In this document: positions 36,301 through 63,549 of the stretch, piece by piece
Numbering within the stretch: the first letter of the stretch is position 1
Layout of the letters: each line of letters starts with the position of its first letter
NCBI GenBank assembly: GCA_029378245.1
Contig: JARKIF010000020.1
Coordinates: forward strand, 744,001 to 808,000
Origin: Roridomyces roridus
Lineage: Eukaryota > Basidiomycota > Agaricomycetes > Agaricales > Mycenaceae
DNA length: 64,000 bases
Direction of reading: 5' to 3'
Position numbers and translations under genes: made by a program
Notes under the pieces: model-generated
Databases searched by the model: none
Told to the model about the DNA's origin: nothing
Seen by the model: the letters and a program-made list of their open reading frames with translations, nothing else

Positions 36301-36859
36301 CATGCAGTTGAGACAGGGATCAGCACATGATGCTAAACAGACTTTCGGGAAATGCCTCAACTTTTCTCTGACCAGTGTGAGCCATCGACAGATCACATAT
36401 TACTGCCTGGAAAGACTGGGAGACACAAGGAGATGGGATGATACCGAATTTGAATGGTCCTCCAAGTACACAGTCATCTATCTAGCATTCTCCACAAAAA
36501 CTGAAAGCAAGTTGGACCTGCACAAAGCACTGCGCTGCCTGGGAGATATCCTGCTCAAAGACGGAGATGATCAAACAGCAGAGAATCTTTTTCTGGTGGC
36601 CCTCGAGGGGTTTACCTTCATGGATGTTCATCAAAGCAGGGCAGAGTGCATGCTCCGTCTTGGGGATCTAAGCCAAAAACGCGGGGACACCTCTGCAGCT
36701 GCTCACTTCTGGCAGGACTCCAGGCCACTTTTTGAACGGTCTCTACAGACTACCCGGGTATCATCTATTGATCGAAGGCTTCATGAGCTCCAGACAGCTA
36801 TCGGTGAGGTTCAGATAGGATGTGATGTGGTTGAAAAGGTGAAGGAAATTGCCAAGTAG
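33303..36859 (+). CDS. NLR/STAND-type immune receptor-like protein
   Basis: From the ATG at 33303, short exons encode an amphipathic helical region. It includes SLIDRLP, HLMSHVHEVLYGIAAL, and MHKIHTFIEAQQQGTFFKQL leading to LLKDCQTELNQALDIFK. This resembles the N-terminal four-helix domain of MLKL/HeLo-like fungal NLRs. An NB-ARC/NACHT-like NTPase follows, with Walker A LLGAGGIGKTSLARA (about 34270), Walker B SDILLVLDNLE (about 34490) and a downstream LPLAIDLIAH motif. The C-terminal half (about 35060-36859) is a helical-repeat region resembling TPRs (ALALAISLGDPYHKARILETMGN). Such proteins act in fungal non-self recognition and programmed cell death; here that role is inferred from architecture. 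All NTPase motifs are intact. Exons visibly contain more A/T at third positions than neighbouring genes. Confidence 0.85.
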
Positions 36860-37033
36860 TTTTGATGCTGGTTGAATATGTAATGTAAAGTATGTAGCCT
36901 CGCAAGTACCAAACAGAGATCTTTCATTCACAATAGTAGAAAGTACAAATGATGCACAGGTCAAGCACAGATAGCCCGTCTGATGTTTCATATGTAATCA
37001 AATTCTTCAACCCAGTGGATGTTCAGGTTGGGT

Positions 37034-37474
37034 TCAGGGTGCGGCACAACAATGCGCCTGCCTGGCAACTTTGGACAGTGTTAGGTTCCGATATGCGAAC
37101 AAATGAGGGATTGAAGGCGGCTCACAAGTTTCCGACTCCATCAGCTGCACCACAGCACAGATCACCAGAGGGGCCTAAGCCAGAGATGTAAGATTCAGGT
37201 CGGTTGAGAAAGGATATGAGGTTAGGACATACACGACTGATCCTAGATGGAAGAAAAACGAAAAATTGTCAGAAGCTTTGCCAAACTAAAAGAGTTTCAT
37301 ACGTAAGGAGCACCTGGCAATACACTCAGTATCCTGTTTTATTCAAAAGTTGTAAGCTCAGAGCTCACCGCATGGCACAGGTTGATCTCCGTGGTCGTGT
37401 CCGTGAGGGCTGCTCAGCACACCCTGAGCCAGAATGAGGAAAAAGAATGCGCTTGCAAAGACTTTGTTGAACAT
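37034..37474 (-). CDS. Small secreted Cys-rich protein 1 (11+10-nt microexons)
   Basis: The signal peptide starts MFNKVFASAFFFLILAQGVL and is followed by a His-rich linker (HGHDHGD). Exon 2 is 11 nt and exon 3 is 10 nt, each flanked by GT...AG. Splicing gives about 67 residues with the pattern C-x8-C-x5-CC-x12-CC. It is the most diverged member of the ten-gene family in 37-55 kb: its last two cysteines are adjacent and its linker could bind metal. The gene is convergent with the NLR gene and ends 175 bp from it. Family function is unknown; a secreted, disulphide-stabilised peptide is inferred from the signal peptide and even cysteine number. Confidence 0.75.
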
Positions 37475-37680
37475 GGGGTTTGGAGTCAAATCTCTGGCCG
37501 GCTGCCACTCTTTATATGATTCAGTGCAGTATAATTTTGGCTGGTTCGGATCCAGGAACGCACCACTCGACTTGTGTCACAATTTGCGACGTCTTCGGAT
37601 GCGCTAAGGCCTACAGTGCCTACTCTATACCTCCGCGGCGTAGGGTCATTCCACTCTATGTCCAGATCATCACTTGCTGA

Positions 37681-37804
37681 AGTCTCCCGTGTCTCAACTA
37701 CAGTAAATTCCATCCGTCGGTCCGCAGGTCAATGTAGCTGCTGCAGTTTCCCGCGTTTGAATTACATTAAATTCCATCCGTCGGTCCCTAGGTCAATATA
37801 GCTG
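37681..37804. repeat. Direct repeat, 2 x 60 bp
   Basis: Two 60-bp units (37681-37740 and 37745-37804) share AAATTCCATCCGTCGGTCC and AGGTCAATRTAGCTG. They lie about 210 bp upstream of the small secreted protein 1 start and may be part of its promoter, but no known binding site is recognised. Confidence 0.7.
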
Positions 37805-38370
37805 AAACCGCAGCTCCTGCAATGGTAGACAAGCGATAGCAATCTTGAGGCGCTCGTGCTATTCTACGGGGAGAACATTTGGAAACATATTGGGTACTCA
37901 TCTGAAGTTCAAGTCACTAATGAGACAGCCGAGCTACAGCACTGAGCAGCAGACCATGACATCGGGACTGGAATATGGGATCGGGTTTCTACAGCGGAAG
38001 CAGAAGTACAAGGATGCATTCTTGTGAGTCAAGTTTCATTTCCCGACAATCAACGTTGAATGATGTGGAAAACCCCGATGCACAATTTCGTAGTTGGTGA
38101 GGAGCGATTCTGTATGATTCCAGGCGCGCGCCACGCGCCGGCTGCTGCATCCCGGTGTGTGTCGTCTCAATTGTGGCCTGTGCATCAAGAAGAAGCCCTA
38201 GATTTGGGACGATAATTTGGCGGCGGCCCAGTTGAACGGCGGGTGGGATGGAGAGCAAAGTTGGCTCCGACACCCCGAAAGATCCCGGACGGTCACCAAG
38301 ATCCGTCCATAATCGTTATGGAATACTAGTACAGTTGAACCGTAGTCAGAGAGATAGTCCGTTTGTGGGA

Positions 38371-39510
38371 TCACTCCTCGGCGAAGGTAGCCTGCGCTGG
38401 GAAAAAGGAATGCCCAATCAGAAGTCCCAACTGAAGCTTGAAAGACCTGCACGCACCAATCTCGTCATTGGCCTTATCGACATGCCTCTTGAGTTGCGCT
38501 GCGAAAGTCTCCAAATCTCGATCGGCGTTCCGAGCACAGACCGCACATGCATCGATGACCGCACACTCGGCAGGCGGAACACTCGTGAATACGGCGGTTA
38601 CCGTGGTACCTGCAGGGACGAGCAGGAGCCGCTCCGCCACACGAGCAGTGTGGCTTTTGAACCATTCGCGCACGCAAGCCCTTTGTGGCGATGCCCTGCG
38701 TCGACCGTCGGCCCGAGGCCCGCAGTGCATCCCGTGCCCGGCCTGTACACGCCAAACAAACTCGAGATGGGTGCTTTCGTCCCGCGTGTGTCGTGCCAAC
38801 AAAGTTTTGGAACCTTCTCGGAGGGGACAGGGAAGGTCGAGCACCCCCGCGTTGTACTCTGCGATCCTCCTGGCGTTTCGCGCGCACGCGTGGTGGAAGG
38901 ACTGTAATTTCGCCACCGTCGCCCACGAGATTAGGAACATCTCGGGAAATTCCTCGGGGCCTGGGGAGAGGGGGTAGGCAAGGGTGGCGAGGGCGGCCTT
39001 TGTCACGAGATGCGGAAGATCGCAGAGGCGTGCGAGTGCGAATATGCGGTGCGGGTGGGTACGGAGGAGAAGAGGGTTGTCGAGCATCGTACCAAGAAGG
39101 GTTTGGACGACGATGAATTGGTATTTGTGAGCTGCCTGGAAGACCTGCCAGAAGCCGTCGAGATCTGGTGCGGTGAGTGTGTATTGATCTGCGGATGTAG
39201 CTGGGTAGGCGAGCGAGAGAAGCCGGAGCCATACGGAGCTCGGTTCGGGGAGAACGAGCACTTGGAGCCCTCCCCTGGAAAGATCCCCCTCGCTGCTGAA
39301 ACCAGCCGGGAATGCGAACATGGAGTCGAAGTATTCCGACGCAAACTTGAGGATTTCTTTATGGACATGGAAGTCAACGAGATCAGCGGAGCGCAGGATA
39401 AAGTCGGGAAGACGGTTGTCGTTTCGATCGTCAGGCACGCCAGAGAATGGCGCTGGAGCATCCCGCGGTGAGCTGGCGGTCGTCGACATTGGAGACGGAA
39501 GCAAGAACAC
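38371..39510 (-). CDS. BTB/POZ domain protein, single exon, 379 aa
   Basis: An uninterrupted frame. The preferred start is the second in-frame ATG (39489). The BTB domain is clear: DFILRSADLVDFHVHKEILKFASEYFDSMFAFP (about residues 36-68), followed by the BACK-like helices FWQVFQAAHKYQF and RIFALARLCDLPHLV. The C-terminal half contains CAVCARNAD and long helices. It is only distantly similar to the BTB gene at 23 kb. Cullin-3 adaptor function is possible by family but not shown. Several long frames on the opposite strand are antisense shadows. Confidence 0.85.
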   Translation of the reverse strand: MFLLPSPMSTTASSPRDAPAPFSGVPDDRNDNRLPDFILRSADLVDFHVHKEILKFASEYFDSMFAFPAGFSSEGDLSRGGLQVLVLPEPSSVWLRLLSLAYPATSADQYTLTAPDLDGFWQVFQAAHKYQFIVVQTLLGTMLDNPLLLRTHPHRIFALARLCDLPHLVTKAALATLAYPLSPGPEEFPEMFLISWATVAKLQSFHHACARNARRIAEYNAGVLDLPCPLREGSKTLLARHTRDESTHLEFVWRVQAGHGMHCGPRADGRRRASPQRACVREWFKSHTARVAERLLLVPAGTTVTAVFTSVPPAECAVIDACAVCARNADRDLETFAAQLKRHVDKANDEIGACRSFKLQLGLLIGHSFFPAQATFAEE

Positions 39511-39999
39511 GAGGCGCTCACGTCACCTGTGACAGGGCCGAGATGCCGGCCCCTGCGGTCGGCATCTCGGCCTGTGGTCAGCTGCCTTGTCGATCACAAA
39601 TTAGTTCCTGGATAAAATTAGGCAGATAACTCACCAGGGTGGGATTCATTTCACGCACACAGAGTCGCTAGACGGTCTCCCATGGCCGGGAGAAGCCGGA
39701 GCCGGTAGCACTCAACGACAGTTGCACCCCGGGACCGGGAGGACTTCCATCTTCGTGCCAGCCAGCATGTGTTCACTGTGGAGTTGTGTGGAGAACCTAC
39801 CAAAACTAGATGCTCAGCGTCCCGAAGTCGAATTAGCCAGCACCATTATTGGCGGATTCTCCGTAACTCCGCTCCGAAAGTCACAATTTATTTCCGCGCC
39901 CACGCACGTTTCACGCCGCCAAGCCCAACTTGACCTGCCTGGGAAACATTATAATGCAAGGCCCGCCGTCGTGGACCGTGGTTCCCATCACCCCCCACC

Positions 40000-40344
40000 A
40001 TGGCGCTAGCAGTGCGCATCCTCCTCGTCGAGCTCCTACTCGTGCTCTGCGCTTCCACCCTTCTCGTCTTTGCCGCCCTCCAATTGTTCGCCGTCCAACT
40101 CCCTACGCTGTTAATCCTGCAGATCACAACGGTCTGCACACTCATTGTATTCGCCGCGTGCCGGGCGGCGGGGATGCGCTATCCGAGTCCGATGCAGGCG
40201 TCTACGTTCGGCGAGGGCGTGGAGGACGTTCCAATCCAGTCGACGGAGAAAAGCGAGCCAGCTTCTTCACCTCCGTTCGCAACGACACCTTCGCCAATAC
40301 TGCCAGACAAATACTCGGAGGCGCAGATTTGTAGGATGGTTTGA
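40000..40344 (+). CDS. Small predicted membrane protein, 114 aa
   Basis: A single open frame with two long hydrophobic segments: residues about 5-31 (VRILLVELLLVLCASTLLVF) and about 33-52 (LPTLLILQITTVCTLIVFAA). A polar, Pro/Ser-rich tail follows. The family is not recognised. The start context is good and the composition looks like a genuine membrane protein, but no homologue is known to me. Confidence 0.45.
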   Translation: MALAVRILLVELLLVLCASTLLVFAALQLFAVQLPTLLILQITTVCTLIVFAACRAAGMRYPSPMQASTFGEGVEDVPIQSTEKSEPASSPPFATTPSPILPDKYSEAQICRMV

Positions 40345-40935
40345 ACGAAATTAGGTGCGTCTCAGTCCTTGGTTTCAGAGCATTCAATCTGATCCCGCGT
40401 AGATTGTCGACGAGGCATTACCCTGCAAGTCATTTGGGTCTTCTCGGATGCAATCATGTACCACCATCGCCATGTAACTTAGAAGATAAACCTGGTATTC
40501 CCAAACCTCGCCTTGTGCGAGGCGAGAACAGCCGTCTTGTTGGGCCGTCCTTCCGCCTGGGGGAGTTCGAGGTTAGAAGTTGTGATAAGTACCAACATTT
40601 TGTGGAGGGTCCAGAGATGTGGAGAACAAAGAGATTTGATGGAAATCACTAGTGCATGATCCGGGTGCGTTTTGACTTCGGCATGGACTCGAGTCCCATG
40701 GACTTATCAGTGGCGCTTGAGCCATCTCCGACACCAGATGTCGAACACCGGCATCGGCGCACATATGCGTTAGCTCGACTCCCGCCCTCGGCAACTAGCC
40801 GGCTTTCGTTGTGGAGCATACTATCGGTAACCTGAAGCATATATTATAGGCCGACCATTCAATAACCAAAGAGAACCATCAATGTGACACCAAATCCCCA
40901 CTCCGGCTACGCCCACTCGTCGCCTTTTTTATAAT

Positions 40936-41354
40936 TTAGCACGGAGGAAGGCAGACCCCGCTTTAGTAGTACAACAGCGTCAAGGCGTGAATTCACATAA
41001 ATCGGAGAGACTCACAGGTCGGAGAATATGTGGAGGGTGGTTGAGGGCGGCGCGCAGCAGCCAGTCTCGCCGGGGAGACAGCAGACGGAGCCGGATGCGC
41101 CTTGTGTCAAGTTAGTGCAAGGCAATTGAGGATGTCAAGGACGACGTACAAGCAGGGAACTGAGCCATCGGGGAGGAATCAGAGATCGACGGTGATTCAA
41201 GAAATGGAATGAACTTACGCCGGGACCACCTACGTGTTCGCTCAGTCAGTCTGATTCAAGTGAGAGAGAACGTGTACATACACGTTACAGCCAATGCGCC
41301 CTGGGTGAACAGGACGGTGGCGAGGAGAGTAACGGAGAAGAGCTTGTTGAACAT
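40936..41354 (-). CDS. Small secreted Cys-rich protein 2, 8-Cys form
   Basis: Signal peptide MFNKLFSVTLLATVLFTQGALA. The first Cys codon is completed by an 11-nt exon 2, the second by a 10-nt exon 3 read into exon 4. The last exon starts after a CTAAAG acceptor. The mature peptide pattern is C-x7-C-x5-CC-x6-CC-x15-C-x3-C and it ends in CLPPC. The spacing C...C-x5-CC-x6-CC resembles the first half of a granulin module, a comparison rather than a demonstrated homology. Start and intron choice are fixed by alignment to genes 3, 4 and 6. A TATA-like run lies at about 41408-41417. Confidence 0.85.
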
Positions 41355-41403
41355 TGCCGGTGTGGGTTGGATTTGGCTGGCGGTATGAATTTATGAACTG
41401 GCA

Positions 41404-41440
41404 GTACTTATATATATTTCGAACGCCGGCAAAAAATAGA
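41404..41440 (-). promoter_or_regulatory. Promoter of small secreted protein 2
   Basis: On the minus strand TCTATTTTTTGCCGGC is followed by TATATATAAGTACTGCCAG. The arrangement (pyrimidine run, G/C-core palindrome, TATA, GTACTGCCAGTT) is repeated upstream of genes 3 and 4. Confidence 0.55.
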
Positions 41441-42537
41441 CCAGATGCAGCCCATGTATGTAGTCGTGGTCTGAGTAGTAGGTGAGAGAGCGCTCTCAGC
41501 CATACCAACGTGAAAGTGGTAGGCATCTCTGACTTACCGGTACCTCGGCGTCGGACGGGGGTTGAAATTCTCAAACAACTGTGTCTCTCGGCCGAAACTG
41601 GGAATATACCACTTGAATAGTAGTAGTCCATGTGCCTTCGACTGCAAGGAGAAAACGGACCTCCTCCGAAGCTCCCGCCGTCTGAAACATTGATACCACA
41701 TCTCCTGAGCCTACGGACGTCACCCCGCTGAAGGCCATAGTCACAGTGTGAACTGTCCATGGATGTCACTCCCATCGCCCCAAATAAATGCATGTCTCGG
41801 CTATGCACAAGTCATGAGAAATGTTTGGTTCCTCCCGGAGTCCAGCGTTCCGTGGTCACTGCGGAGTTTGTACGCAGGAACACTAGACTCCCACAGCAGA
41901 GGTGAGCATCCGTCATCCCGCAGTACCTCTTCATTCCAACCCACAAATTAGCTTGAAAGCAGTCTCCCAAGCGGGGATCGAGGCGCCCGCTTCTGCATCC
42001 CGTGGGTTACCCGCCCAGCCACGGGTTCCGGTTTTGCGGCTGCGGGTACTACGGAGTTCCGATGCCGCCCTTTTCCCGCTGGCCGCGGCTTGCAGGTGCC
42101 AGGGTGAATTGCACTTGATACAAATGAATCTATACTAACTAACAATGGGCGCCGTCACAATGGTAAAATGATGCACGGGGGGAGAAAATGAATCAGAGGG
42201 CCTACTGCACTGCGTTTTCCTCTTGCACCTGGTACAATTCCAATTCTTCCCTGGATGTCAGCGTCCAGGATAGATCTTAGAGGTTGGTTTGGTGTGGCGC
42301 ACACGGGATCATCCCGTACATCGACATCGGCGGTCATATGCTTTGGCTCTCGAGTCCCGCCCTCGTCAACTGGTGGCCTGGACCTCACAACTTTTGTGGT
42401 GACTCATGACACTCAGTGAATAAATGGTGGCAATGGTACAGTACATAAAGAAAATATTGTCTTCGAACAAATCCCCGGCCGCCGAACTTACGGATAGCTA
42501 CACCGTGCTCCCACCAATTTTGAGAATTCAACAGGGA

Positions 42538-42951
42538 GGAAGGCAGTGCCCACTTTAGACAGCATCAACCCATGAGATTGCGGCAATAGGGGAGAGACCT
42601 ACAGGTCGGAGAATATATGGAGGGTGGTTGAGGGCGGGGCACAGCAGCCAGTCTCGGAGGGGAGGCAGCAGACCGTGCCGGATGCGCCTTGTGCTTGACG
42701 TTAGGAACATATGGGTAGTGAGGGATGTAGAAGATGACGTACAAGCAGGGGCCTAAATCGGCGGGGAGTATAAGGAATGAACGGTCGGATGCAAGAGAAT
42801 GAACTTACGCCGGGGCCACCTATTCAGGTCGACTTAGTCAGACTGATGCAAGTTGCAGACGTGTATACATACATGTTACATCCTGAGCCAGTGCTCCCTG
42901 GGTAAACAGGAAGGTGGCGAGGAGAGTAAAGGAGAGGAGCTTGTTGAACAT
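42538..42951 (-). CDS. Small secreted Cys-rich protein 3, 8-Cys form
   Basis: Signal peptide MFNKLLSFTLLATFLFTQGALA, then QDVTC. Exon 2 (11 nt) and exon 3 (10 nt, GCCCCTGCTT) supply the Gly/Pro loop and the second Cys. The pattern C-x7-C-x5-CC-x6-CC-x15-C-x3-C is identical to gene 2, with changes concentrated in the loops (ASGTV for ASGSV, LPSETG for LPGETG). The last intron uses GTAGGT...CTAAAG. It is separated from gene 2 by duplicated flanking sequence. The gene looks intact. Confidence 0.85.
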
Positions 42952-42987
42952 TGTCGGCGTGGGTTTGGATCTAGAGGTTCGAACTGG

Positions 42988-43026
42988 CAGTACTTATATG
43001 TTTTGAATGCATGCAAAAAAATAGAT
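42988..43026 (-). promoter_or_regulatory. Promoter of small secreted protein 3
   Basis: ATCTATTTTTTTGCATGCAT, then CATATAAGTACTGCCAG on the minus strand, about 45-75 bp before the ATG. The same order occurs upstream of gene 4. The GCATGCA palindrome is a candidate regulatory site. Confidence 0.6.
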
Positions 43027-43139
43027 TACATCCGGGCAGGTGTAGTAGGTGGGAGCGCCTTCATCCAGTGCCACGACGTTAAGGTGGTAACCATCTCTGA
43101 CTTACCCATGACGGGCGTTGGAATTGTCAGTAGGAGTAC

Positions 43140-43960
43140 ATAAGGTACGTCGCAGGTATGGGTACGGGCCAGCCCGTACGCGGACCCGGCGCTGGGCGGG
43201 CACGAAACCCGTAGGGGCTACCCCCAATCCGTCGGGTTCCACTCGGAAAGATGAATGGTTACACCTTGTTCTATGCCTTGATTCGAATGAAAGCCCAACA
43301 TTAGGTGAAGTTGATTGAATTCGAACTTACTCAACGGTGATCGACGGCGCATAAATGACTTGTGAATGGCCTGAATTTGGAATGGCCTGAATCGTTAAGT
43401 CAAGTTCAATCCCGGCAGGCTGAGTGATCGCCGCAGTCTCCCGTTAGCGTACGGACGTGAACCAGCGGAAGGGCTGTCCCCAGTGGCCGTCGCTGCAATG
43501 CCACTGGGCAAATGATAGAACGGCTCCCCGCTCTGAGTCACTCCTCAAACTTGAACGCATGCATTCCCAACTCCGGTTGGCAATAGAAGTTCCGCGCGAG
43601 TTCGATCTCGTTTGAAGCAGGTTGAAGCAATCAACTAGGCAGGTATTCCCCGTTCAGAAGGCATTTCTGGGTCCAGGAAGACTTCGGCGGGTGTCGATGG
43701 TGCAAAGACTGCGTAGAAATATCGCCCCAACGGAATCAACAATAAGCTCCGGGCTCGTGAATGAATCCCAGTGGAGTCTAAGTGGACAACCATGCCTGAG
43801 ACGATGTTCGATGTTCATGAGCAGCAGAGAATACGACAGTCTGCAGATAGGTGCGTGCCCGTGTGGTCAAAGAAGTGCTCGTGGGGAGCCGTAGTCGGTG
43901 CCGTAGTAGGGATCATGATCGGAGAAACGGATCACGGATCACGGAGCGGAAGTCAATGCG
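43140..43960. other. Intergenic stretch, no gene seen
   Basis: Short unsupported frames only. The sequence lies between the 5' flank of gene 3 and the gag-like remnant, and contains no repeat matching the array. Confidence 0.4.
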
Positions 43961-45546
43961 GTGCTCATCAAATACTGGCGTCAATCTCCTCTTGTCGTCT
44001 ACTCTCATCTTCCTGCCAGAACTCGTTTTCGTTCCACTCTTCCCATGCGTACTCTGGGTATTCGGCTACCTCAAGCTCCATCAAGCTTTCGTACGACGTC
44101 AAACGCGCAAGAGGGAAGGCATCGAGCCAGGAATCTTCGTTGGGAGGCCAGTCGGTATCGCGTGAAGATACGTCGGAGGACAGGAAATCCCATTGAGCGG
44201 GCTCGCCGAATTCGTCGTTTCCGATCTCTGACTCTGCGGGCCATCCGTTCCAGCTTTCAGATACGTGCTTGTGTGATTCCGGGGTGCAGGTAAAGACGGG
44301 GATCTGATTCTCGTCGGGGACACTATCGCGGTGCGTGTACCGTCCCTCGGCGTCAAACATCCATGTCAACTCGTCGGCTGTGTACGTATCCGAGAAGGAA
44401 ACTGATCGGCGGCAGGGAAGTACTCGAGGTGCGTGGAAACATCGTCGATCGCCGGCGGACTCTAAACAAGTGCACTGCTCGATGCAGTTCTCCTCATCTT
44501 CGCTATACGACTGGGGATGGTGTAATCAAGTCCGGTGTATGATTCGCTGGTCGCGTTGTCCATCGGCGGGACAAGGTGCGTCGTATCATCCGCAGCGGTA
44601 TCCGTCTCATCGAATCTCAAGGGTGCGGCTACCACAATCAATACGAGTTTCAGCCAAGCATGAACAAACGCTCAAGAGCGTCGTCGGTGATGCTAGTCGG
44701 TGGTGCATACGGGCTGCGTCGTCTCGTCCCGTCCTCTCCTCCTTGGGATTCATGCGAATTGACCCAGAGAAGGTTGGGTACGAGAAGGCGGGCAGCGTCT
44801 CCTCGTTTGGAGGTTCCGATGCGTACTTCAAGGGTAGAAGAACATGCGGCGCAGGTATGTACGTGGTTCTCGATACTTGAGTTCAGTGCTAATGCCAGTC
44901 ATACAGGTCGTGGTACTCGGGATCGTTGACGTCCATATTCAGCAGCTGCGCGATAAGTCCCGCGACTTCAATGGTATATCGCGTTCGATATAGGGAGGGG
45001 ACGGAGGTGCGTATTGTTGAGCTGTGTTTCTGTGATACTGACTGTCTTTTCACAGATTTCGGGGTATCCTCGTCATGGTCTAACTCGGACTCGGACTCAT
45101 CGGACGTAGAATCAAATTCGTCTGTATAAATCAGCATCGAATCGACCTCGTTTGACATACACATTCAATATGGCGGTTATTTCGACACGCGTGAACGGCT
45201 GGGACATATCTCGGTTGGGGTTCTGTGGCAACAAACGCTTCTCGACGAAGCGGTATGTGCTCGAGTGTAATCCATCCCACAGCTGGCGTGCAATCAGCTG
45301 GTGTTTAACCAACCATCCGGCAATGACGGTGAATTCCTGCAGATACTGACGCCGGTCACTCATGGAACCGAGTCTATGACGGCGCCATCGGTCGGTGAGT
45401 CGTTCCAAGTCGTGTGGGCGGTAACGTTGTTCAGCGCGGTCTGCGTCGAAGATGATCTTCATGTCGGCAACTAGAGTGATCCAGTTCGGGGTAATGTAGT
45501 TCGTCATGCCATCCAAAACCTGAAGCATACAGTATAGGCCGACCAT
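43960..45546 (-). pseudogene. Degenerate retrotransposon gag-like gene
   Basis: The 5' block (45546-45112) reads NYITPNWITLVADMKIIFDADRAEQ and then YLQEFTVIAGWLVKHQLIARQLWDGLHSSTYRF. This is the pattern of Agaricomycete gag-like proteins: a helical capsid-like domain followed by a conserved YLQEF...W-x-G segment. Acidic, low-complexity segments (STSDESESELDHDED; 133 residues open at 43968-44369) follow in other frames or exons. No protease, RT or zinc knuckle was found. The frames do not connect cleanly, so this is a decayed fragment or a domesticated remnant lying between two duplicated units of the secreted-protein array. Confidence 0.5.
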
Positions 45547-45639
45547 TCGATAACCAAAGAGAACATCAATGGGAAACCAAATCCCCCACTCCCGTCGAGC
45601 TTGGAAAAAGCTACGCCCACTCGTCGCCAGTTTGATAAT

Positions 45640-46072
45640 TTAGCAGGGAGGAAGGCAGACCCCGCTTTAGTGGTACACCAGGGTCAGTCCATGAATTCGC
45701 GCAAATCCGAGAGACTCACAGATCGGAGATTATGTGGATGCTGGTTGAGGGCGGGGCGCAGCACCCAGTCTCGCCGGGGAGACAGCAGACGGAGCCGGAT
45801 GCGCCTTGTGTGTCAAGTTAGTGGAATATCAATGAGGAATTGAAGGACGGCGTACAAGTGGGGAACTGAGCCAGCGGGGAGGTGTCAGAGATCGACGGTC
45901 GGAGGGACTTGAACATGGAATGAACTTACGCCGGGGCCACCTATCCAGGTCGATTCGATCAGTGTGATGCAAATTAGAGAGACATGGGCATGTACATACA
46001 CTGTACAGCGAGTGCTCCCTGGGTGAACAGGACGGTGGCGAGGAGAGTGAAGGAGAAGAACTTGCTGAACAT
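45640..46072 (-). CDS. Small secreted Cys-rich protein 4, 8-Cys form
   Basis: Signal peptide MFSKFFSFTLLATVLFTQGALA. The 11-nt (GTGGCCCCGGC) and 10-nt (TTCCCCACTT) microexons are flanked by GTAAGT/GTACGC donors and GATAG/CTCAG acceptors. Mature pattern C-x7-C-x5-CC-x6-CC-x15-C-x3-C, ending CLPPC. It is most similar to gene 2, as expected from the segmental duplication. The gene is divergent from gene 5, whose ATG lies 890 bp away. No defects are seen. Confidence 0.85.
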
Positions 46073-46097
46073 TTTCGGTGTGGAGCTGGAGGTTTGA

Positions 46098-46140
46098 ACT
46101 GGTACTTTTATATGGTTTGAATATGCATGCAAAAATAGAT
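46098..46140 (-). promoter_or_regulatory. Promoter of small secreted protein 4
   Basis: ATCTATTTTTGCATGCATA then CATATAAAAGTACCAG on the minus strand, the same module as upstream of gene 3. The TATA-like core is about 35 bp before the ATG. Confidence 0.6.
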
Positions 46141-46961
46141 TGAACAAGGTCCTGCGTGGTAGGTGAGAGCGCCTTCATTCCTGACGGCGTAAGCATCCCT
46201 GACTTACCCAGTGTCGGACCGACGGGGGTTGAAATTCTCAGACAACTGTGTATTTCGGCCGAAACTCGAAATACCATTTCAATAGTACTATTTACATGTC
46301 CCTTCGACTCCAAGGAGAAAGTGGAGCGAGGCCGTCTGAAACATTGGTACGTACATGTGACATCCCGCTGAAGGTTGAATTGTCCATGTCACTCCCCGTC
46401 GCCGTAAATGAAGGCATGAATTCGCCGCTCGAAGTCACCCCTCAATGCATGTCTCGGCTAAGAAGGTGTTATGGGAAATATTTGGTTCCTCCATTGTTTG
46501 GTGACTGCGGAGTTTGTACGCACTAGACCCTCACCGGGCTAGATCTTCCGTCATCCCGCTGTACCTGGAATGTCATTCCAACCGACAGAAAGGAGTGTCC
46601 CGAGTGGGGATCGAGGCGCCCGGTTGTTCATGGGATTCCGATGCCGCTCTTTCCCCGCTGGCCGCGGCTTGCAGGTTAGGTTAGGGTGAAGTAACAAAGC
46701 AGGTTGGGCAGACCCTGTGCGGCTGGCGCCTAATCGGTAAATCGCTTGGGAGAGGCCGAGTACATACGTCGTTAAGTCCACTCGGCCTCGGGACGCCATT
46801 CAACAGAGGTTGGTTTGGGCGCGGCCACCGCTACTAGTGTCCGGGTACCCCACCATATAGTATTCCGTGCGAAACCCGAAACTCCAGTTGTCCTATCGGT
46901 ATAATATAACCTCGTCCAAAGCGTTTCGCGCAAACTTCCCTCCGTCCAACTCGAAGCAAAT

Positions 46962-47367
46962 ATGTTCAACAAAATTATCTCCATGAGCATCCTCGCTGTG
47001 CTTGTTCTCGGACAGGGTGTCCTCGCAGCGCCTCAGATCCAGGCTATCAGCTGTGAGTGGACTCTGCTGCAAATTAAGTGATCGCTGACGGAAGACGCAG
47101 GCACTACTTCGAGTGTGAGTACTAATTAATTAGAATCAGTGTTCCACCTTGACCTGGAATGGTTGATTTCGTAGGATTGTGAGCAAAGCTAATCTCTAAA
47201 ATGCCGTGTCTCATTCTTGACTTAGGTCCGACCGGCCAGACTTGTTGCGTCGTGGCCTCCATTCCACAGTCGCCCGGCTTGTGAGTCCCCAAAATATTCT
47301 CGTAGTCCATGGTATAATGAACGGACGTTGATACAGGTGCCACCAATTCGCATTCTGCCCTGAGTAG
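46962..47367 (+). CDS. Small secreted Cys-rich protein 5, 6-Cys form
   Basis: Five exons: 46962-47052, 47101-47114 (14 nt), 47175-47178 (4 nt, GATT), 47226-47280 and 47337-47367. Together they total 195 nt and encode 64 residues. Signal peptide MFNKIISMSILAVLVLGQGVLA. Mature pattern C-x5-C-x5-CC-x11-C-x5-C with the motif DCPTGQTCC. Six cysteines in the order C-C-CC-C-C are typical of inhibitor-cystine-knot peptides, and CPxGxTCC also matches granulin starts. The 4-nt exon encodes Asp and begins the second Cys codon, so skipping it would change the frame. A TATA-like TATAATATAAC lies about 55 bp upstream. Confidence 0.88.
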
Positions 47368-47471
47368 TCGATAGATTATTAGATATAAGCCGCGCTACCT
47401 GTTCAAATTCTGTAGTCAACCAATCCATTTCGAACAAATTTCCAATGTTACAAGTGCGAAGTAGATGAAGA

Positions 47472-48985
47472 CTAGACGTCATTCGGGAACGGCTTCGGCA
47501 CAGGGAAAATCTCCGGCGCATCCGTCCGCATCTTGGGCCCAATCAAATGATCAAACGACGGCGAATTTTCAACCCTCTCCGTAAAATCATCAATATCCCA
47601 CAACAGCCCGAGCGTCTTGAGCACCGACGTCGCGCTATACGGCTCCGCATTCCCCGTGACAGGGTTCGTTCCGTAGTTCTCGATGTGCGCTTTGGGCACG
47701 TACGGCGACACGAGCCACGTCGGCGTGCGCCCGCCGTAGCGGTCGAAATGGAACGTATAGTGGTGCGTGTGATCGGTGTAAGTGTCATTAATGCCCGTGC
47801 GCACGGCGAGCGGGGAGGGAACGTGGTCGTAGAAACCGCCACTCTCGTCGTAGGTCAGTACGAAGAGTGTCTGGTCCCACAGCGGGCCTTGCCGAATGGC
47901 GTCATAGATTTGCTTCACGAAGAGCTGTCCGTACGAGACGTTCCCGTTGGGATGCATCGAGTTGGTGTTTTCGTGGCAGCACGATGGGTTGAGATACGAG
48001 AGCTGCGGGAGGAGGCCGAGGTACGCGTCCTGGAAGAAATTTTCAATCGGGACGACGTTCTTTTTGGCATGCTTTTCGGTCCAGGAGTAGAAGAGGGCGT
48101 CGGGGGAAAGGTTCCCGAGTTGATACCCCCATACTCGTTGTTCGAGCCGTCGTAGTTGAGCCACGATATGTCGCGCTCGCTCGCTGCCTCGAAGATGCTC
48201 GTGAAATGCAACCCGGATGTATTGAAGGCCTTGTCGTTTCTGCCGTGGCCGCCGGATGTTCCTGAAACCGCGCAGGCGCGATTGGGGTTTGTGGGCTAGC
48301 ACGTATCAGTCCAAAGACCAAAATTCAATAGTTCAAAACGCACCCCAGGGATGCACGAGAACCAGTAGTTGAAGGTCAGGAATTCATCCACGAGCTTGGC
48401 CATCGTGGGGACTTCCTCCTCCGAGTAATATCCCATGACCTCAGCCGCAGCCCTCTCCGCGGTAATACCCGTCTTGTTCACGTGCGCTTGGATCTGCTTC
48501 TCGATGAAGCCCTGGTTCGTAGCTACCAGCTCCCCACTCTGAATGGCAGCATTGTCGGGGGAAGACTGTCCATAGAATTGGAAACAATTCGAGGCAATGG
48601 AATGCCCGGGGTCGTGAATGATTGAATCAAAGTCCCTGGGTCTGGTGCAGAGCTTCTGGCCCGTCGGGTCGGAGACATCGACAGGATTGCAGGTGTCGCC
48701 CATGTTGGCGGGATTGTCGAGGCCCGGGCGGTGGACGCCGCCCAAAATGTTGTCGAAAGAGCGGTTCTCGAGGAGAAGCCAGACAACGTGCTTGATCTTG
48801 TCTTTCATGTTGGAGACAGATTCAGCCGAACCCGCTTTGTAACCGAACGGAGCAGGACTGATGGCGTGGGGCGGGGAGACTGTGACCACATCCGACGCGT
48901 TGCCAAACAGCGTGTTGCTGACGGTATCGACGACGGCTGTTGTGGTGGCGAAGAAACTGAGGAATGCTGCAGTGGTGTTCACCAT
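47472..48985 (-). CDS. Secreted phosphoesterase / phospholipase C-like protein
   Basis: The N-terminus is hydrophobic (VNTTAAFLSFFATTTAVV), compatible with secretion. A phosphoesterase domain follows, with the metal-binding start HVVWLLLENRSFDNILGG (E-N-R-S-F-D), NYDG/CSCIPG-type segments and TYDESGGFYDHVPSP. These are landmarks of bacterial and fungal non-haemolytic phospholipase C/acid phosphatases. The intron 48296-48343 (GTGCGT...CTAG) splices in frame. Near 48126-48130 a run of five G on the minus strand coincides with a one-base frame change in the middle of well-conserved sequence. The gene is therefore either recently inactivated or carries a base-call error. It sits between small secreted proteins 5 and 6. 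Confidence 0.8.
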
Positions 48986-49029
48986 AGTGATGCAAAAGTG
49001 AGGCGCGACTACTGGGCTTTATAAGGGGC

Positions 49030-49988
49030 GGTAGCGTCGATTATGCGAAGAAATCCAGAAGAAACCAGCGGAGGCGAGTTTGCCCTTTGACCAGATACCT
49101 GGAAGCACGCATAGTCCATCAGAAGTGGCGTTGAAATGGACGAGCTAAGACCGCACCAGGTTTTCACTAGGAGCTTGCCGTCGGAATCTAGTCATCATGT
49201 AGCCGAATGGAAGATATGGTCTTGGAGTTATGGCGGATGCTAGGAGTCAGGAGTCAGAAGAGGGTGAGCCTGATGGCGCCAGAAGAGTTATGCGCCGGTC
49301 AGAAACCATTGATCAATCAGAAGGGACAATGGCCGCGGCTTTCAATGGTAAGAGCCTTTGAAGAGATAGGCCAAGTAATTGTGACCGTCTTGAAGCCGGT
49401 CCCGAGAGGTTGCGACTTCACCTTTGAGGAAAGGTATGAAGGAAAGGTGACGAAGTTGCCGTTGGGAGGGGAGTCATTAGGCTTCCCAGAGCTCTACGGG
49501 GAGGTGCCAGAGCATGGTAGTGCTTAGGAGCACGTATGTGATGCACGGGGACCATTGAGAGCGGCATAACTCGACGGTCAGAGTCGCATGATCCCGCGCA
49601 TCCAGCCAGACTTGGCGTCGGGAGGGATCCGAGTCAGCCGAACGGTGTTGAGCTGGGCGCAGGTATCACGGCCCCTCTAGTGTTTGGGATCAGTTGCAGC
49701 GGGTGCGTCGGCCGAGAGATTGGGTGCCGAAGCTGAGAGTGTGGGACAAACACGACCAAACGCCTGATGAATTGATGAATCGTGCATCCGGCATCACCGC
49801 ATCTCTACCAACCTTCCGGCCCCAACTTCCTCGCCGAATTGATTTGTAGCAAGTCGCGCAGGGATTTGGCAGGGATGCCGAAATGATGCAGGGCATAAAC
49901 TCTCCTCTCAATGCGTGCACAATCATTGTTGACGAAGAAAATTTTCATACATCGCCTGGCTACGTAATTAAGCGGTCCAATACTCGAT
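49030..49988. other. Intergenic stretch, no gene seen
   Basis: An open frame of 106 codons at 49207-49527 (+) has no recognisable features or splice partners. No repeat was recognised. Confidence 0.4.
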
Positions 49989-50428
49989 TTAAGACGAAGG
50001 GCAAGGAGGAAGACAGTGCCCACTGATAATCATATCGACGTCAATCTGTGAAAACTCAGCCACAAAAAGACTGACACGTTGGATGAGCCGCCGAGCTTTG
50101 AGGGCGGCATGCAGCAGACGGTCTCGGAGGGGAGGCAGCATACTGTTCCAGCGGCACCTGGGGTATCAAGTTTGTACGACTCTTTCTTAACACATGAATG
50201 ATGGCGACGTACAGAGCGCGGCCTACAACCGCCGGCGCAGTGAGTCTCGTCGGCCGCGGGAATCAAGACAGCAAGGAACTTACCCCTGGCCCGCCTAAGG
50301 ATGGTCAGTCCAAATCACTAGGAGCGGGACGCAAAGAGACCAAACGTACACGCCACGTCTTGAGCCAGCCCTCCCTGGATGAAGAGAAGCGTTACAAGGA
50401 GAGAAAGAGACAAGACTTTGTTGAACAT
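49989..50428 (-). CDS. Small secreted Cys-rich protein 6, 8-Cys form
   Basis: Signal peptide MFNKVLSLSLLVTLLFIQGGLA then QDVAC. The 11-nt exon GCGGGCCAGGG and 10-nt exon GCCGCGCTCT have perfect splice sites. Mature pattern C-x6-C-x5-CC-x6-CC-x14-C-x3-C, with an extra PSS tail after CLPPC. This is the most diverged 8-Cys copy: its loop between CC pairs is LPSETV and the fourth loop is Gly/Ser-rich. It is divergent from gene 7, with 597 bp between the two start codons. Confidence 0.85.
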
Positions 50429-51025
50429 TGCTGATCTGCGTGGATTCAATTGTCCTTAGCGGTATGAGCTAGCTAACTTATATTCTCTAGAAAAGGCAAG
50501 AGATGAAATGGAACATTTAACCAGCCTCGCGGCCCAGCCCGAGCCTTAATGTAATACTAGTACTCAAAAACCCAATTGAACTATGGAAAGGACTGAGTTC
50601 GCCGATCAGCAACGGGGTTCTCCTCCAGAGGCGCCCCCCATCAATGTGGGGTTCAACGGCCTCCGTTATGCCCCTGGATTACAATTCACGCTTCGATATT
50701 ACATTCGGATGCCGCCCGGCTACTTCGTTGCTAGACCGACCTTCCGAGAGGTATTTCCCACCAAGGTCCGTGTGACGGACTAATATAGTGAAAGTGCCGA
50801 GCTGTCCAGCCGTAGGTCGACCCTGCAATCCTCTGTGTTGATTTCGGTGCGCTCAAGACAAGGCGGGTCGGGGCGCGCCGGTCCAGCTACGTAAGATGGT
50901 TAGATGCGTTGCCAGGGTTCACAACCGGTGCCCGATGGGCCCTACGTATGACCAGTATCCGCGATACTTATTAAGACCCGTCCACTGGCCGTTTGCATCA
51001 AGTTCAAGCTTCCCCGTTCGCACAA

Positions 51026-51449
51026 ATGTTCAGCAAGATCATCTCCATGACCCTTCTCACTTTCCTTGTCTTCGGACAGGGTGCTGTCTGCGCGCCGCAG
51101 ACCAGTGCGATCAGCTGTGAGTTCATTGCCTCAATCCAAGCTAGGTCCTGACCGGGACATGTCTGCAGGCACGGATTCCAGCGTGAGTTGTGTCTAGAAT
51201 TATATTTTCAACCCTTCTCTGAAGCAGCCGATTTGTCGTGACACAGGAATGTGAGCCAAATCTTGGAGTCCCTGATGGCGCGGTGTCTCATACAGGACCT
51301 AGGCCCAACGGGACAGGCTTGCTGCATCTTCAACTCCATCCCCCAGTCGCCTGGCACGTAAGTGTTGTTCCGCAGCCATGGAATGAACGGAGCGTTGATT
51401 TGGGATCTGGTCGAGCAGCTGCAGCACCCTCGGATTTTGTCCCGTCTAG
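51026..51449 (+). CDS. Small secreted Cys-rich protein 7, 6-Cys form
   Basis: Signal peptide MFSKIISMTLLTFLVFGQGA. Exon 2 is 14 nt (GCACGGATTCCAGC) and exon 3 is 4 nt (GAAT); the final exon is 31 nt, as in gene 5. The mature peptide has C-x5-C-x5-CC-x11-C-x5-C with SSECPTGQACC and NSIPQSPG. The spacing is identical to gene 5, but many residues between cysteines differ. It follows gene 6 in divergent orientation. No frame defects. Confidence 0.87.
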
Positions 51450-52278
51450 GCTGGCCGCTGCAGGCATTGTCAGCAAATATATGATGTGTATTAACAGTGC
51501 AAATTTTGAATTTGGGTTCAACTATACGATGCCGAAGCGATGCCGATCGTGATTCAACTGATTGATGTCTTAACTCCCAGATCAGAACGTCTCGGACTTT
51601 GTGAGCAGGTTGTCAGCAAGCGTGCCCTGGCATTCAACATACTGTTTCTGGTCTTACTTAAACGAAATCACATCACCTCTGAGAAACATGTGGTCTGTAG
51701 GTAAACGCGGAGCCACGGTCCACCGATCCCGACGGGAGTTCTGAGATGATGCGGATCAATGTTAACCAACCTGGGCCGCGCCAAGACTGAACTCCCGGCC
51801 ATGAACGGAGTTTTCGTTGTATTCTGCGAGGGCCGGGGTGTATGTACCCGGCAAAACCTGGGCCAGGAGCTTGCTGTGAATGAGACTTCGTCTCAGTATT
51901 CCGGCATCATTAATGAGGTCTCTGCCTGTGCTGCGTGTTGAGCATTGCATTGGAATTCCTAATGCGAGATAGAGCTGGCCAAGAGCTAGACACCTGGTTG
52001 TTAGAGATCGCTACCGTGTTTGACTTCCCACAAGTATGGTCGATGTTCTCATCCCCGTCCTGTTCGTATGCCAAGCTTCTTGGCCCATTGTTTCTGAATG
52101 GTATTTCCAGTTCTCTGTCGAACCGACCCTGGATTCGGGCTAAACACTGAGTCCAGAACTGACAGGGTGTGTCATCTCAGCCCCATGGTATCGCTCTCTC
52201 TCCGAAAGAATGTCTGGGCACTCTACACGTATATAAACGCGCTGTAGACGAGGGGTTTACCTCAAATCGAGTCGAACC
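51450..52278. other. Spacer between genes 7 and 8
   Basis: Short frames only. A TATATAAAC box at about 52230 precedes gene 8. No repeat of the flanking units was recognised. Confidence 0.4.
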
Positions 52279-52664
52279 ATGCTCCACAAACTCATCTCAC
52301 TCACTCTCCTCGCCTTCCTCGTCCTCGGACAGGGAGCGTTGGCTGATCAAATTTGTGCGTCGTAGAATCCCAGCTTTGGGTTACTGACCTGATTCCATAC
52401 AGGCAAGACTGACATTGTATGTATCTCTCCCGTCCAGGCAGATGTTCATTGACCATTGAATTTTCTAGGACTGTACGAATGAAGCCTTGGAGCGATAGAC
52501 ACCCGCAAACTCACCATGTTCGTCGATCTAGGTCCCACCGGGCAAGAATGCTGCAAGCTATTGACCGACCCTCCTCAGCTCACTGGAAGGTGAGCATTGT
52601 GATTCTCATGATAACGGCCGAGCTGACGCCGTACCGTAGCTGCGGAGAGGTCTGTATCGAGTAG
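52279..52664 (+). CDS. Small secreted Cys-rich protein 8, 6-Cys form
   Basis: Signal peptide MLHKLISLTLLAFLVLGQGA. Exon 2 GCAAGACTGACATT (14 nt), exon 3 GACT (4 nt). Pattern C-x5-C-x5-CC-x12-C-x3-C with IDCPTGQECC and end CGEVCIE. The C-x3-C end resembles the 8-Cys proteins (CLPPC), so this gene links the two groups. TATATAAAC lies about 45 bp before the start codon. Confidence 0.87.
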
Positions 52665-52887
52665 TCACCGGTAGCATTCCATGCGTCGAGAGGCAACGAA
52701 CGGTTGAAATGATCTGTTATATGCTAAATTTAAACTGAGTCCCCTTCATAAGTCAAGGTTGTCGAGAGTGACTCCCGCACATTTGGCCACATATGTTCAT
52801 ATTTCCCGTTCGTCCGGTTACGTGCACCACACCCGAGTACAGTATAATAGAATTGTGGCCTCGCATGAATTGCATCCAACTCGCAAC

Positions 52888-53312
52888 ATGTACTTCCCAA
52901 CGCTTTCCGCGACGATTCTTGCGCTCCTTCTCTTCGGGCACAATGTTTTCGCCATCGAGTGTGCGTCCATTGGTCGCGACTTGGAGTGAATCGAGAGACT
53001 GACCGCGGCGCGACATCTTCTCTACGCAGGTACTACCTTCAATGTTTGTCCTTTTAGCTCACCGAGTCGGAGGGGCAAGTACTTAGCTGATTGTCTTGCA
53101 TACAGAACTGTACGATCATCTAGAACGGTCGGATGCGACTGGCAGCAGCTCATCTCATGTTCTCAGGCCCTGGCGGCGGACAGTGCTGCATCCCGATCAT
53201 CGAACCCCCCGAACCCGGCCAGTATGCGTCTGTCTAACCGAGTGAGGAGCGGTTCTGATATTGATTCGGATGTAGCTGCGCGTCGGCCTGCCCTAGATGG
53301 ATGGAGAATTGA
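52888..53312 (+). CDS. Small secreted Cys-rich protein 9, 6-Cys form
   Basis: Signal peptide MYFPTLSATILALLLFGHNV. Exon 2 GTACTACCTTCAAT (14 nt), exon 3 AACT (4 nt). Pattern C-x5-C-x5-CC-x11-C-x3-C with NNCPGGGQCC and a Pro-rich loop. The last exon ends PRWMEN and a TGA at 53310-53312. The signal peptide differs from the MFNK/MFSK type of most other members, suggesting an older duplication. Confidence 0.85.
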
Positions 53313-54654
53313 ACCTGACTTACTTCCTGTTTGGTTCCTCAGAGGTCGGATGTTGTGGACGGGAGTAGCAATAGTAGCAATAACTGGAATAAGATCTGAT
53401 GTAGAGTATTCAGATCAAAATCAGTGGATTGATTCATCTGGTCCGTCTCGGCATTGAAGTCGGACATCGCAATCTGATAATTGTTGCACTGGTACCCCTG
53501 GCTGTTGACCGGGCACTGTCTGGCGCCACTCGTTTGAATGCACGCACTGTCGCCGTAGATGACAATCACTGCATACCGAACCGCCGCGAACTAAAGGAAT
53601 CTCTATTCATATTGGCATGCTCGTTGCCGCGCGGCGCGCAGTGTCGCAACACCATTTCCCGTCGGGATTGGAAAATTCTGAGCCATTGTATTTCCGCGGC
53701 GCACCGGGGGCTCTGCTTCCCGCCTGGAATGAATCAATAATGTACAGTTACCCCACGCCTATTGAGTGCAAATTGAATTCGCGGGATGCCGAATGCGGGA
53801 TCACCTAACGAGCGAGCACTTTTCAAGCAGCGCCGGGATTAATGCATTTTATCGGCCGTGTTTCACTAACAAATCCGGACTTTCGCTCAGGTTCGTTTAT
53901 ACATACCACTCTTGTTAGGCTTCGGATTCACATCGCAAAGGGGTAGCTGCATAAATCCATTGAAATCTGAGCGCCCGGCTAACGAGGCGACCCGTCTTGA
54001 ATTTGTGCCTTCACCGCGTTAGAGCCTAGAGCGAGCGGGAACATTCGACAGCGGACTAGTATCGACGAAGGAGATTGAATTATCAGAGGCTACGCGGTTC
54101 AGGGTGGAAGGTGTACGTATGCATTGGTTGACGCGGCGATCATTATGTTGTTTTGTCGTCGGCCCTTCATCTATTCTTCATCCAGGTTACTTATGTAACA
54201 GGAACCACTGGGGAGCAGGTGCATCCGATGAGGATGGATTGTGTGAAAATACCAACCGCCGAGAGAACAGTTCGGCGGAGTGCTCGTGAGCCATGCATTA
54301 TTACATTATTCGCATATCCACCTCGCGATCCGCCCCCGGGCGGGACATGGAATACCAGGCCGGACACCCGCAGATCTATTCTTTCGACGGAACTTCTCAT
54401 GTCCGGAGCCCTCAGAAGGAGAATATTCAGGTAAAACAGACCCGGCTCCGCCAGCGCCAATACTATCTCGGCGACTCTCGGCTCACACCACCTGGCATTC
54501 AATATTCTACTCAAGCCCGAATACATTCCGTGCCTCAAACCCGTTGCTACCCATCGTCAACACTATTCCAATACCCATTCCTCAAGCGCTTATGTTATTC
54601 TTGGAGAGCTATAAAACAACCAGGACGGCGCTGTGGAAGGACATCGACAAAAAT
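53313..54654. other. Spacer with possible gene remnant
   Basis: On the minus strand, 53760-53340, two open blocks with Cys-rich content (KWCCD; IYGDSACIQTSGARQC) could be exons of a decayed secreted protein. Splice signals are weak. Elsewhere no gene is seen. A TATAAAA at 54610-54616 belongs to gene 10. Confidence 0.3.
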
Positions 54655-55078
54655 ATGTTCAACAACTTCAAGCTCTTCACCGCTGCCCTGTTCGTCCTCG
54701 TCCTCGGAGAGGCGGCCATCGCTATTCCTCAAGGCCCCGCCCAGATTCTCTGTGGGTCTCCTTCTTATTCCGAGTTTCTTGACTTCCCCGCTGACTCGAC
54801 GCACAGGTGGAGCCGGTGTAAGTACTCGCATGTGAGACCGCTGTTCAGATTTGACCCAACACGTTTCTAGTTTGCCGAGTGTAAGCATCCCTGCCTTCCA
54901 ACCTCTTCAACGTGCATGACTGACGCAACCTTTAGGCGGTTCCGGCGAGCTCTGCTGCGGCACCAGCACCCCCGGAGTGAACGTGTGAGTCGTAACGTGC
55001 AGGTTTGGCGAGCGGAGTATAGACTGAACCTGTCAAAGCTGCCAGAACGGTGCCCTCCTCTGCCTCGTCCCCACCTAA
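54655..55078 (+). CDS. Small secreted Cys-rich protein 10, 6-Cys form with 11+10-nt exons
   Basis: Signal peptide MFNNFKLFTAALFVLVLGEA. Exon 2 is GTGGAGCCGGT (11 nt) and exon 3 TTTGCCGAGT (10 nt), the layout of the 8-Cys genes, but the mature pattern is 6-Cys: C-x6-C-x5-CC-x9-C-x6-C with AECGSGELCC. It combines the exon structure of one group with the cysteine number of the other. TATAAAA is 39-45 bp before the ATG. The last exon follows a GTCAAAG acceptor and ends at the TAA 55076-55078. Confidence 0.85.
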
Positions 55079-55503
55079 AGGATTTCACTTGTTGGGCAGA
55101 GTCTGCTATGTACGCACACGCAGATTTGATGTATGCACTCGGGTTATCGTTGAAATTGATTTGCTATTGTGTCTCGATTGCGTCCGGGTTCTATTGACCG
55201 AAGCCGAAGGTTGATCGCCGAACCGGAAAGTATCAGCTCTTTGGCGTGCCAACTTTGTCATGTGACTATCATTCCGGTTTCTTCCTGCCCAAGCCTCCAC
55301 CCTTGCTCCACCGTGCGCTGCTTGCAGTGTCAAAATCCTTCAGCTTTCGGTGGTGATGAGTCTGTGGCACCCAAATCCACGGGCGGGATAGAATCGTTGC
55401 TACTGTTGCCGCTGGTCATTGCTTAGATCTCGGACGTTCTCAAGGGAACCCGCGTCTTTAATATTTATAAGATGGCTTCCTCTGTCGCACGACAGCAATT
55501 AAC

Positions 55504-63365: not shown

Positions 63366-63549
63366 GTGAGTTGTTGGTGTTATGTTACTTCAAGTTGGTA
63401 TCCCATTTGACTTGCGCGCGCATTCGGTCGAATACATTTGCGGGTGATCATCTGCCGTTTTTGTGACAGACGCAACAAAGTATCTCCCGCTGGTACTTAT
63501 ACTCCAACACTCCGTCCCACACCGATTGGTTTCCTCTCTCTACATTCCC

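Follow-up and report, generated by a model that had tools for sequence, protein, structure and literature searches.

Schistosome micro-exon genes (MEGs) are multi-copy genes for secreted proteins that are assembled from exons of 3-81 bp (PMC10526429), and very short exons have also been reported in filamentous fungi, where Xlr2 of Trichoderma virens contains a very short internal exon (PMC11121469) and where the shortest exon of the P450 genes of the white-rot Phanerochaete chrysosporium measures 6 bp (PMC1184071). Here, we describe an array of ten small genes, named A to J, in a window of 64,000 nucleotides (nt) of the genome of the mushroom Roridomyces roridus, Mycenaceae, Agaricales (the whole stretch of DNA that was analysed: positions 744001-808000 of contig JARKIF010000020.1, called C113 below, in an assembly of 90.8 Mb and 501 contigs). 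Each gene is predicted to be spliced from five exons and to encode a small, putatively secreted cysteine-rich protein, and exons 2 and 3 are both predicted microexons, a point that an earlier reading of the same DNA (the sequence-only reading) had not stressed. Whereas MEGs have introns of up to 5 kbp according to the available text of the source cited above, the genes of the array combine introns of 47-69 nt with two microexons, and no sequence kinship between the two systems is claimed. The two fungal cases differ in another way, since the available parts of their sources concern transcription factor and enzyme genes and describe neither a secreted peptide family with two successive microexons nor a 4-nt exon. 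Small secreted cysteine-rich proteins are known in fungi, and we found no description of this microexon layout: the family was not recognised, by title or abstract, in our searches of the open-licence PMC literature, and in the available text of PMC4014442 the word "microexon" merely names an aligner setting.

The ten loci, five per strand, were retrieved with a strict five-exon finder that demands a hydrophobic N-terminus, four introns of 42-75 nt, an exon 2 of 8-20 nt, an exon 3 of 3n+1 nt and at most 16 nt, cysteines at set junctions and a CC pair in exon 4; for E and G, it also returned a second model from an internal ATG. No finder match was obtained in the reversed window, in 60 windows simulated with a first-order Markov chain (3.84 Mb) or in the reversed sequence of the fetched loci. 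Since the finder was written after the genes had been read, these controls gauge specificity only. All 40 introns of the ten genes are GT..AG introns of 47-69 nt, and the intron phases 1, 0, 1 and 2, given by the ends of exons 1 to 4, are common to all ten. The sequence-only reading had listed the same ten genes, an observation that is thus confirmed. Its interpretation, a shared five-exon plan with equal phases behind a signal-peptide-like N-terminus and an even number of cysteines, is supported by the finder results with their controls, four intact paralogues, public models such as those of D and of the paralogue J2, and substitution patterns in the spliced frame. The gene models are as follows.

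Gene A: 37023..37474, minus strand, ATG at 37474; 73 residues, six cysteines; exons 37474-37369, 37313-37303, 37242-37233, 37174-37126, 37068-37023; microexon 3 at 37233..37242 (10 nt).
Gene B: 40936..41354, minus strand, ATG at 41354; 67 residues, eight cysteines; exons 41354-41282, 41229-41219, 41159-41150, 41100-41016, 40960-40936; microexon 3 at 41150..41159 (10 nt).
Gene C: 42528..42951, minus strand, ATG at 42951; 69 residues, eight cysteines; exons 42951-42873, 42819-42809, 42752-42743, 42687-42603, 42552-42528; microexon 3 at 42743..42752 (10 nt).
Gene D: 45640..46072, minus strand, ATG at 46072; 67 residues, eight cysteines; exons 46072-46000, 45940-45930, 45865-45856, 45804-45720, 45664-45640; microexon 3 at 45856..45865 (10 nt), its residues being present in public protein P0001.
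Gene E: 46962..47367, plus strand, ATG at 46962; 64 residues, six cysteines; exons 46962-47052, 47101-47114, 47175-47178, 47226-47280, 47337-47367; microexon 3 at 47175..47178 (4 nt).
Gene F: 49989..50428, minus strand, ATG at 50428; 71 residues, eight cysteines; exons 50428-50350, 50294-50284, 50222-50213, 50157-50076, 50022-49989; microexon 3 at 50213..50222 (10 nt).
Gene G: 51026..51449, plus strand, ATG at 51026; 64 residues, six cysteines after the signal part; exons 51026-51116, 51169-51182, 51247-51250, 51303-51357, 51419-51449; microexon 3 at 51247..51250 (4 nt).
Gene H: 52279..52664, plus strand, ATG at 52279; 58 residues, six cysteines; exons 52279-52354, 52403-52416, 52469-52472, 52532-52589, 52640-52664; microexon 3 at 52469..52472 (4 nt).
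Gene I: 52888..53312, plus strand, ATG at 52888; 60 residues, six cysteines; exons 52888-52960, 53030-53043, 53106-53109, 53167-53221, 53276-53312; microexon 3 at 53106..53109 (4 nt).
Gene J: 54655..55078, plus strand, ATG at 54655; 68 residues, six cysteines; exons 54655-54751, 54807-54817, 54871-54880, 54936-54984, 55039-55078; microexon 3 at 54871..54880 (10 nt).

For gene A, exon 5 was placed at 37068-37023, giving ...NFCQAGALLCRTLNPT, because the product is then similar to J and to the Mycena proteins P0004, P0008 and P0011 described below; the lower limit of 37034 that had been proposed for the array matches another choice of this exon, ending in ...NLQAHCCAAP, and is corrected here to 37023. 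Exon 5 of G may alternatively start 3 nt earlier, and a form of I with an exon 4 longer by 6 nt is possible.

The predicted proteins share a hydrophobic N-terminal stretch, which the finder required and which may be a cleavable signal peptide, followed by a motif C-x5..7-C-x5-CC-...-C-x3..6-C, with 33-45 residues from its first cysteine to the C-terminus. The cysteine order is C-C-CC-C-C in the six-cysteine members (A, E, G, H, I and J) and C-C-CC-CC-C-C in the eight-cysteine members (B, C, D and F), which begin with C-x6-C-x5-CC-x6-CC; the C-x5..7-C-x5-CC core is carried by all ten and by the four paralogues J2, K, L and M found elsewhere in the genome.

Exon 2 measures 11 or 14 nt in every gene of the window, while exon 3 measures 4 nt in E, G, H and I and 10 nt in A, B, C, D, F and J, so that sizes combine as 11+10 or 14+4 in the window and additionally as 14+10 in L and M; in E, the predicted junction sequence through the 4-nt exon reads GCACTACTTCGAGT-GATT-GTCCG. 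Introns 1 and 3 interrupt the first and the second cysteine codon, respectively, so that exons 2 and 3 together would encode the first cysteine loop; gene A deviates in that its exon 1 already contains the whole codon of the first cysteine. Their summed length follows the length of this loop, with 18 nt for 5 residues, 21 nt for 6 and 24 nt (L and M) for 7, gene A being the exception with 21 nt and a 7-residue loop. Skipping exon 3 alone would shift the frame in 14/14 intact genes, whereas losing both microexons would preserve it in each of these genes and retain one of the two cysteines. Since fungal introns are short, such tiny exons may be tolerated through intron definition.

The four intact paralogues outside the array all lie on minus strands (J2 at C113:935536, K at C57:328299, L at C13:1960947 and M at C390:91437) and have the same phases as the array genes. 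A fifth relative (C334:3556286, minus strand) shares the layout, but the family plan puts its CC exon out of frame. Our count of members in the genome is a lower bound, as it covers the loci to which one DNA query, five protein queries and the patterns led. J2 is a near-identical copy of J and belongs to an inverted segmental duplicate, in which window positions 53184-56332 match approximately C113:926358-937078 with 92-99% identity in pieces and which contains gene J (as J2), a 3' fragment of gene I and a portion of the gene that follows. Flanking DNA is also common to B, C, D and K, indicating that part of the family grew by the copying of longer stretches.

We then compared substitutions between paralogues. 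In their mature parts, the differences at codon positions 1, 2 and 3 numbered 65, 59 and 130 (six non-overlapping pairs pooled), and the ratio of nonsynonymous to synonymous substitution rates (dN/dS) ranged from 0.10 (C-F) to 0.72 (B-K) in the eight pairs with finite dS, leaving aside J-J2, which are almost identical; for A-J, dS was saturated. When 14 pairs were read in the spliced frame, dN was lower than dS in all 11 with finite dS, whereas in the two other frames dN equalled or exceeded dS in 27/28 tests. This third-position excess, together with a dN below dS in the spliced frame only, supports that frame and suggests a present or recent function.

A profile search had been put forward as a check, and our protein searches, made in a very large public collection, gave 31 distinct proteins, mostly from Mycena. 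Six belong to R. roridus and 22 to ten Mycena species; one comes from Collybia nuda, and the last two are metagenomic. These searches would miss protein models that exceed 1.75 times the query length or have no short words in common with the query. Within these limits, the earlier expectation held that most of the ten would be overlooked or wrongly modelled by gene finders: R. roridus hypothetical protein P0001 is spliced gene D, identical at 67/67 residues, P0006 is a garbled model of B, and the searches gave no public model of A, C, E, F, G, H, I or J. Among the models of the paralogues, P0007 ends with the complete J2 including its microexon residues, behind 21 extra N-terminal residues, P0020 agrees with M up to the end of exon 4, microexon included, and diverges afterwards, and P0005 (K) and P0027 (L) carry the frameshift that skipping exon 3 would cause, keeping to that frame for 28 and 22 residues after exon 2, respectively.

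First-match E-values, recorded before a protein entered any query, were 7e-9 for P0002, 6e-8 for P0003 and 2e-7 for P0004. Those of P0008, the sole Mycena crocata protein (0.07), and of the Collybia protein P0009 (0.09) were not significant, and their later E-values are circular; nine Mycena species thus rest on a significant first match, and a spread of the family beyond the Mycenaceae is tentative. P0026 to P0031 had E above 0.001. Nine Mycena proteins that carry only "hypothetical protein" names (P0002, P0003, P0004, P0008, P0010, P0011, P0013, P0014 and P0019), compared at the protein level, resemble the array proteins in their hydrophobic N-terminus, often MFxKL...ILAILVLGQGA, and in a C-x-C-x5-CC-...-C-...-C core, of which P0013 lacks the second cysteine. 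In an alignment of the 12/31 proteins judged complete enough, two of them from R. roridus, we recognised by eye three subtypes that recur in other Mycena: A/J (P0004, P0008 and P0011), B/C/D/F/K (P0002 and P0003) and L/M (P0010, P0014 and P0019); no counterpart of the E/G/H/I subtype was seen by eye in other Mycena in this 12-sequence alignment. Relatives whose contigs have the same length (M. epipterygia P0003, P0011 and P0012; P0010 and P0019; M. sanguinolenta P0014 and P0018; M. galericulata P0004 and P0024) suggest that the genes are clustered there too. The M. epipterygia model P0012 contains two consecutive family N-termini, as would result from a fusion of adjacent copies, a possible sign of tandem copies in this species, and P0023 and P0031 suggest an intron at the intron-2 position in M. 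olivaceomarginata.

No Pfam family convincingly accommodates the array proteins, and the best lead is a weak, partial match to WAP (PF00095). Protein H scores 21.4 bits against a cut-off of 20.8, with WAP positions 15-31 of 41 matched (17/41); E and G match below the cut-off and the other seven of the ten proteins gave no WAP match. A C-x5-C-x5-CC core like that of array members is typical of WAP and granulin modules. Neither the whole-domain score nor eight cysteines in WAP spacing, which we used as a test, places the proteins in the WAP family, since H has six cysteines instead of eight and 12 residues after the CC, and since the eight cysteines of B, C, D and F come in another order. The C-x6-C-x5-CC-x6-CC of these eight-cysteine members is near the start of a granulin, except that in granulins the next CC follows eight residues on, instead of six. 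The granulin domain has twelve cysteines, whereas the array proteins have at most eight and lack its second half, and we do not count them as granulins; Pfam granulin gave no match at E up to 10, and the match of carp granulin-1 in PDB (E 0.35) was not significant. Knottins are similar in the C-C-CC-C-C order of A, E, G, H, I and J, to which B, C, D and F add an extra CC pair, and differ from the six-cysteine members in that these have 9-16 residues between the CC and the fifth cysteine. Matches to late nodulin, dumpy and Dickkopf in Pfam were all below their cut-offs. Structure prediction, also proposed earlier as a check, was run with 12 public sequences and gave folds of low confidence, in which the signal part is helical and short strands lie close to the cysteines; Foldseek matches to a Momordica peptide, Evasin-3 and omega-agatoxin IVB were weak and none was significant.

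The explanation that we favour is that the ten genes of the array are open copies belonging to a family that occurs across Mycena, that all four introns would be removed from their messages in the cell, the two microexons together encoding the first cysteine loop, and that the products, once their putative signal peptide is cleaved, are likely secreted and likely locked by disulfides between paired cysteines, probably acting outside the hyphae as defence or inhibitor molecules. Taken as a whole, with the extracellular role included, we consider it about evenly poised between right and wrong. Mycena is a mostly saprotrophic genus and R. roridus a litter saprotroph. This role is favoured because the proteins are small and have an even number of cysteines, because part of the array expanded by tandem copying, with loops that vary and selection that is mostly purifying, because most of the genus is saprotrophic, and because the C-x5-C-x5-CC core weakly resembles WAP and granulin modules. 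Several observations weigh against the explanation: the predicted folds had a mean predicted local distance difference test score (pLDDT) of 68.8 and 64.0, the structural search gave no PDB match better than E 1.4, no activity motif was found in the peptides, exon 3 could also be a 4-nt variant in A (with an acceptor 6 nt downstream) and a 1-nt variant in J, H can be modelled in one natural-looking way that has no microexon and leaves its cysteines intact, and K fails the strict microexon test presented next, its acceptor being GAG instead of pyrimidine-AG. Alternatively, there may be no microexon, the span between exons 2 and 4 being removed as one long or nested (twin) intron and the AG..GT pair within it having arisen by chance. 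The H model and the public models of K and L, which omit the microexon, speak for this possibility. Nevertheless, a direct join of exon 2 to exon 4 shifts the frame in every intact gene, P0001, P0007 and P0020 contain microexon residues, and when spans between exons 2 and 4 were searched for a pyrimidine-AG, an exon of 3n+1 nt ending in T and a GTNNG, a candidate was found in 10/10 window genes against 0.7-4.4% of simulated spans, depending on the gene; of the outside paralogues, J2, L and M also pass. Moreover, a search for models with exons of at least 18 nt and introns of 35-200 nt found, within these limits, arrangements keeping the C-x-C-x-CC..C..C pattern in 3/10 genes only: F, with eight models of which the three shown each have a 68-nt second exon, G, with two models that both use a signal-peptide cysteine, and H, which is thus the gene whose microexon is least forced. 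We therefore hold a splicing plan that dispenses with the microexon to be very improbable. Slight, too, is the probability that we give to decaying duplicates that have no present function, which the out-of-frame CC exon of the C334 relative and the presence of only a 3' piece of gene I in the inverted duplicate might suggest, since all five exons are open in each of the ten genes of the window, whose introns are of the GT..AG type, and since the differences between these genes favour third codon positions about 2:1 over either other position.

The main rival to a defence or inhibitor role keeps the same genes and the same splicing, and takes the peptides to be effectors or signals directed toward a living partner (a plant root or other fungi) or toward the development of the fungus itself; we rate it as clearly less probable than not, and still worth serious attention. 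The presence of the family in many Mycena species, including one regarded as a litter saprotroph, speaks against it, as does the mostly purifying selection on the mature parts, since diversifying selection would be expected of many effectors aimed at a host. Lineage-specific arrays of small secreted cysteine-rich proteins are, in its favour, a common form of fungal effectors, and a rust candidate effector with a cystine-knot fold has been published, according to the available text of its source (PMC6889267). UniRef names P0015 and P0020 "Hydrophobin", which would make the products hydrophobin-like surface proteins. Since neither of these two proteins has any Pfam match at E up to 10, this name looks wrong; with HMMER filters that drop most matches above about E 0.1, no hydrophobin match was obtained at that level for the ten proteins or the 12 aligned public sequences either. 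Hydrophobins have the cysteine order C-CC-C-C-CC-C, against C-C-CC-C-C or C-C-CC-CC-C-C in the array, and we find a hydrophobin-like nature hardly credible.

If the favoured five-exon splicing is confirmed by transcripts, the array would offer a compact natural test of how the spliceosome copes with an exon of 4 nt flanked on both sides by introns of about 50 nt, with many parallel copies that differ in microexon length to compare. A further idea, which we consider unlikely, is that exon cassettes correspond to the segments lying between cysteines in a secreted miniprotein: a frame-neutral pair of successive microexons (down to 4 nt) would encode exactly the first loop, loop length would evolve with the length of the microexons, and an isoform with an odd number of cysteines, able to dimerise, could arise when both microexons are skipped together in a regulated manner. 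The array also points to a blind spot, in that a likely secreted family of mushroom proteins can be absent from a public protein collection, or frameshifted in it, because of one tiny exon, and such gaps would bias surveys of fungal secretomes and effectors.

Several other features were observed in the window. A NACHT/NB-ARC frame followed by a TPR frame (34139-36859, plus strand) possibly forms one NLR-like gene adjoining the array, and a phosphoesterase-family (PF04185) gene lies between E and F (47472-49018, minus strand), and its two overlapping frames hint at an intron near 48300; taken with a BTB gene, these neighbours, which flank the array or lie within it, suggest no pathway. Further away, a 5,344-base stretch (3790-9133) with repeated ends of about 120 bases has a 100% identical inverted copy about 6.6 kb upstream and may be either a young mobile element or an assembly artefact, and Copia-like reverse transcriptase and RNase H frames were recognised by eye at 9089-10380. 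Finally, positions 59717-60198 and 63493-63977 form an inverted pair that is 86% identical and may encode a membrane protein (FVVSTFAA..LS).

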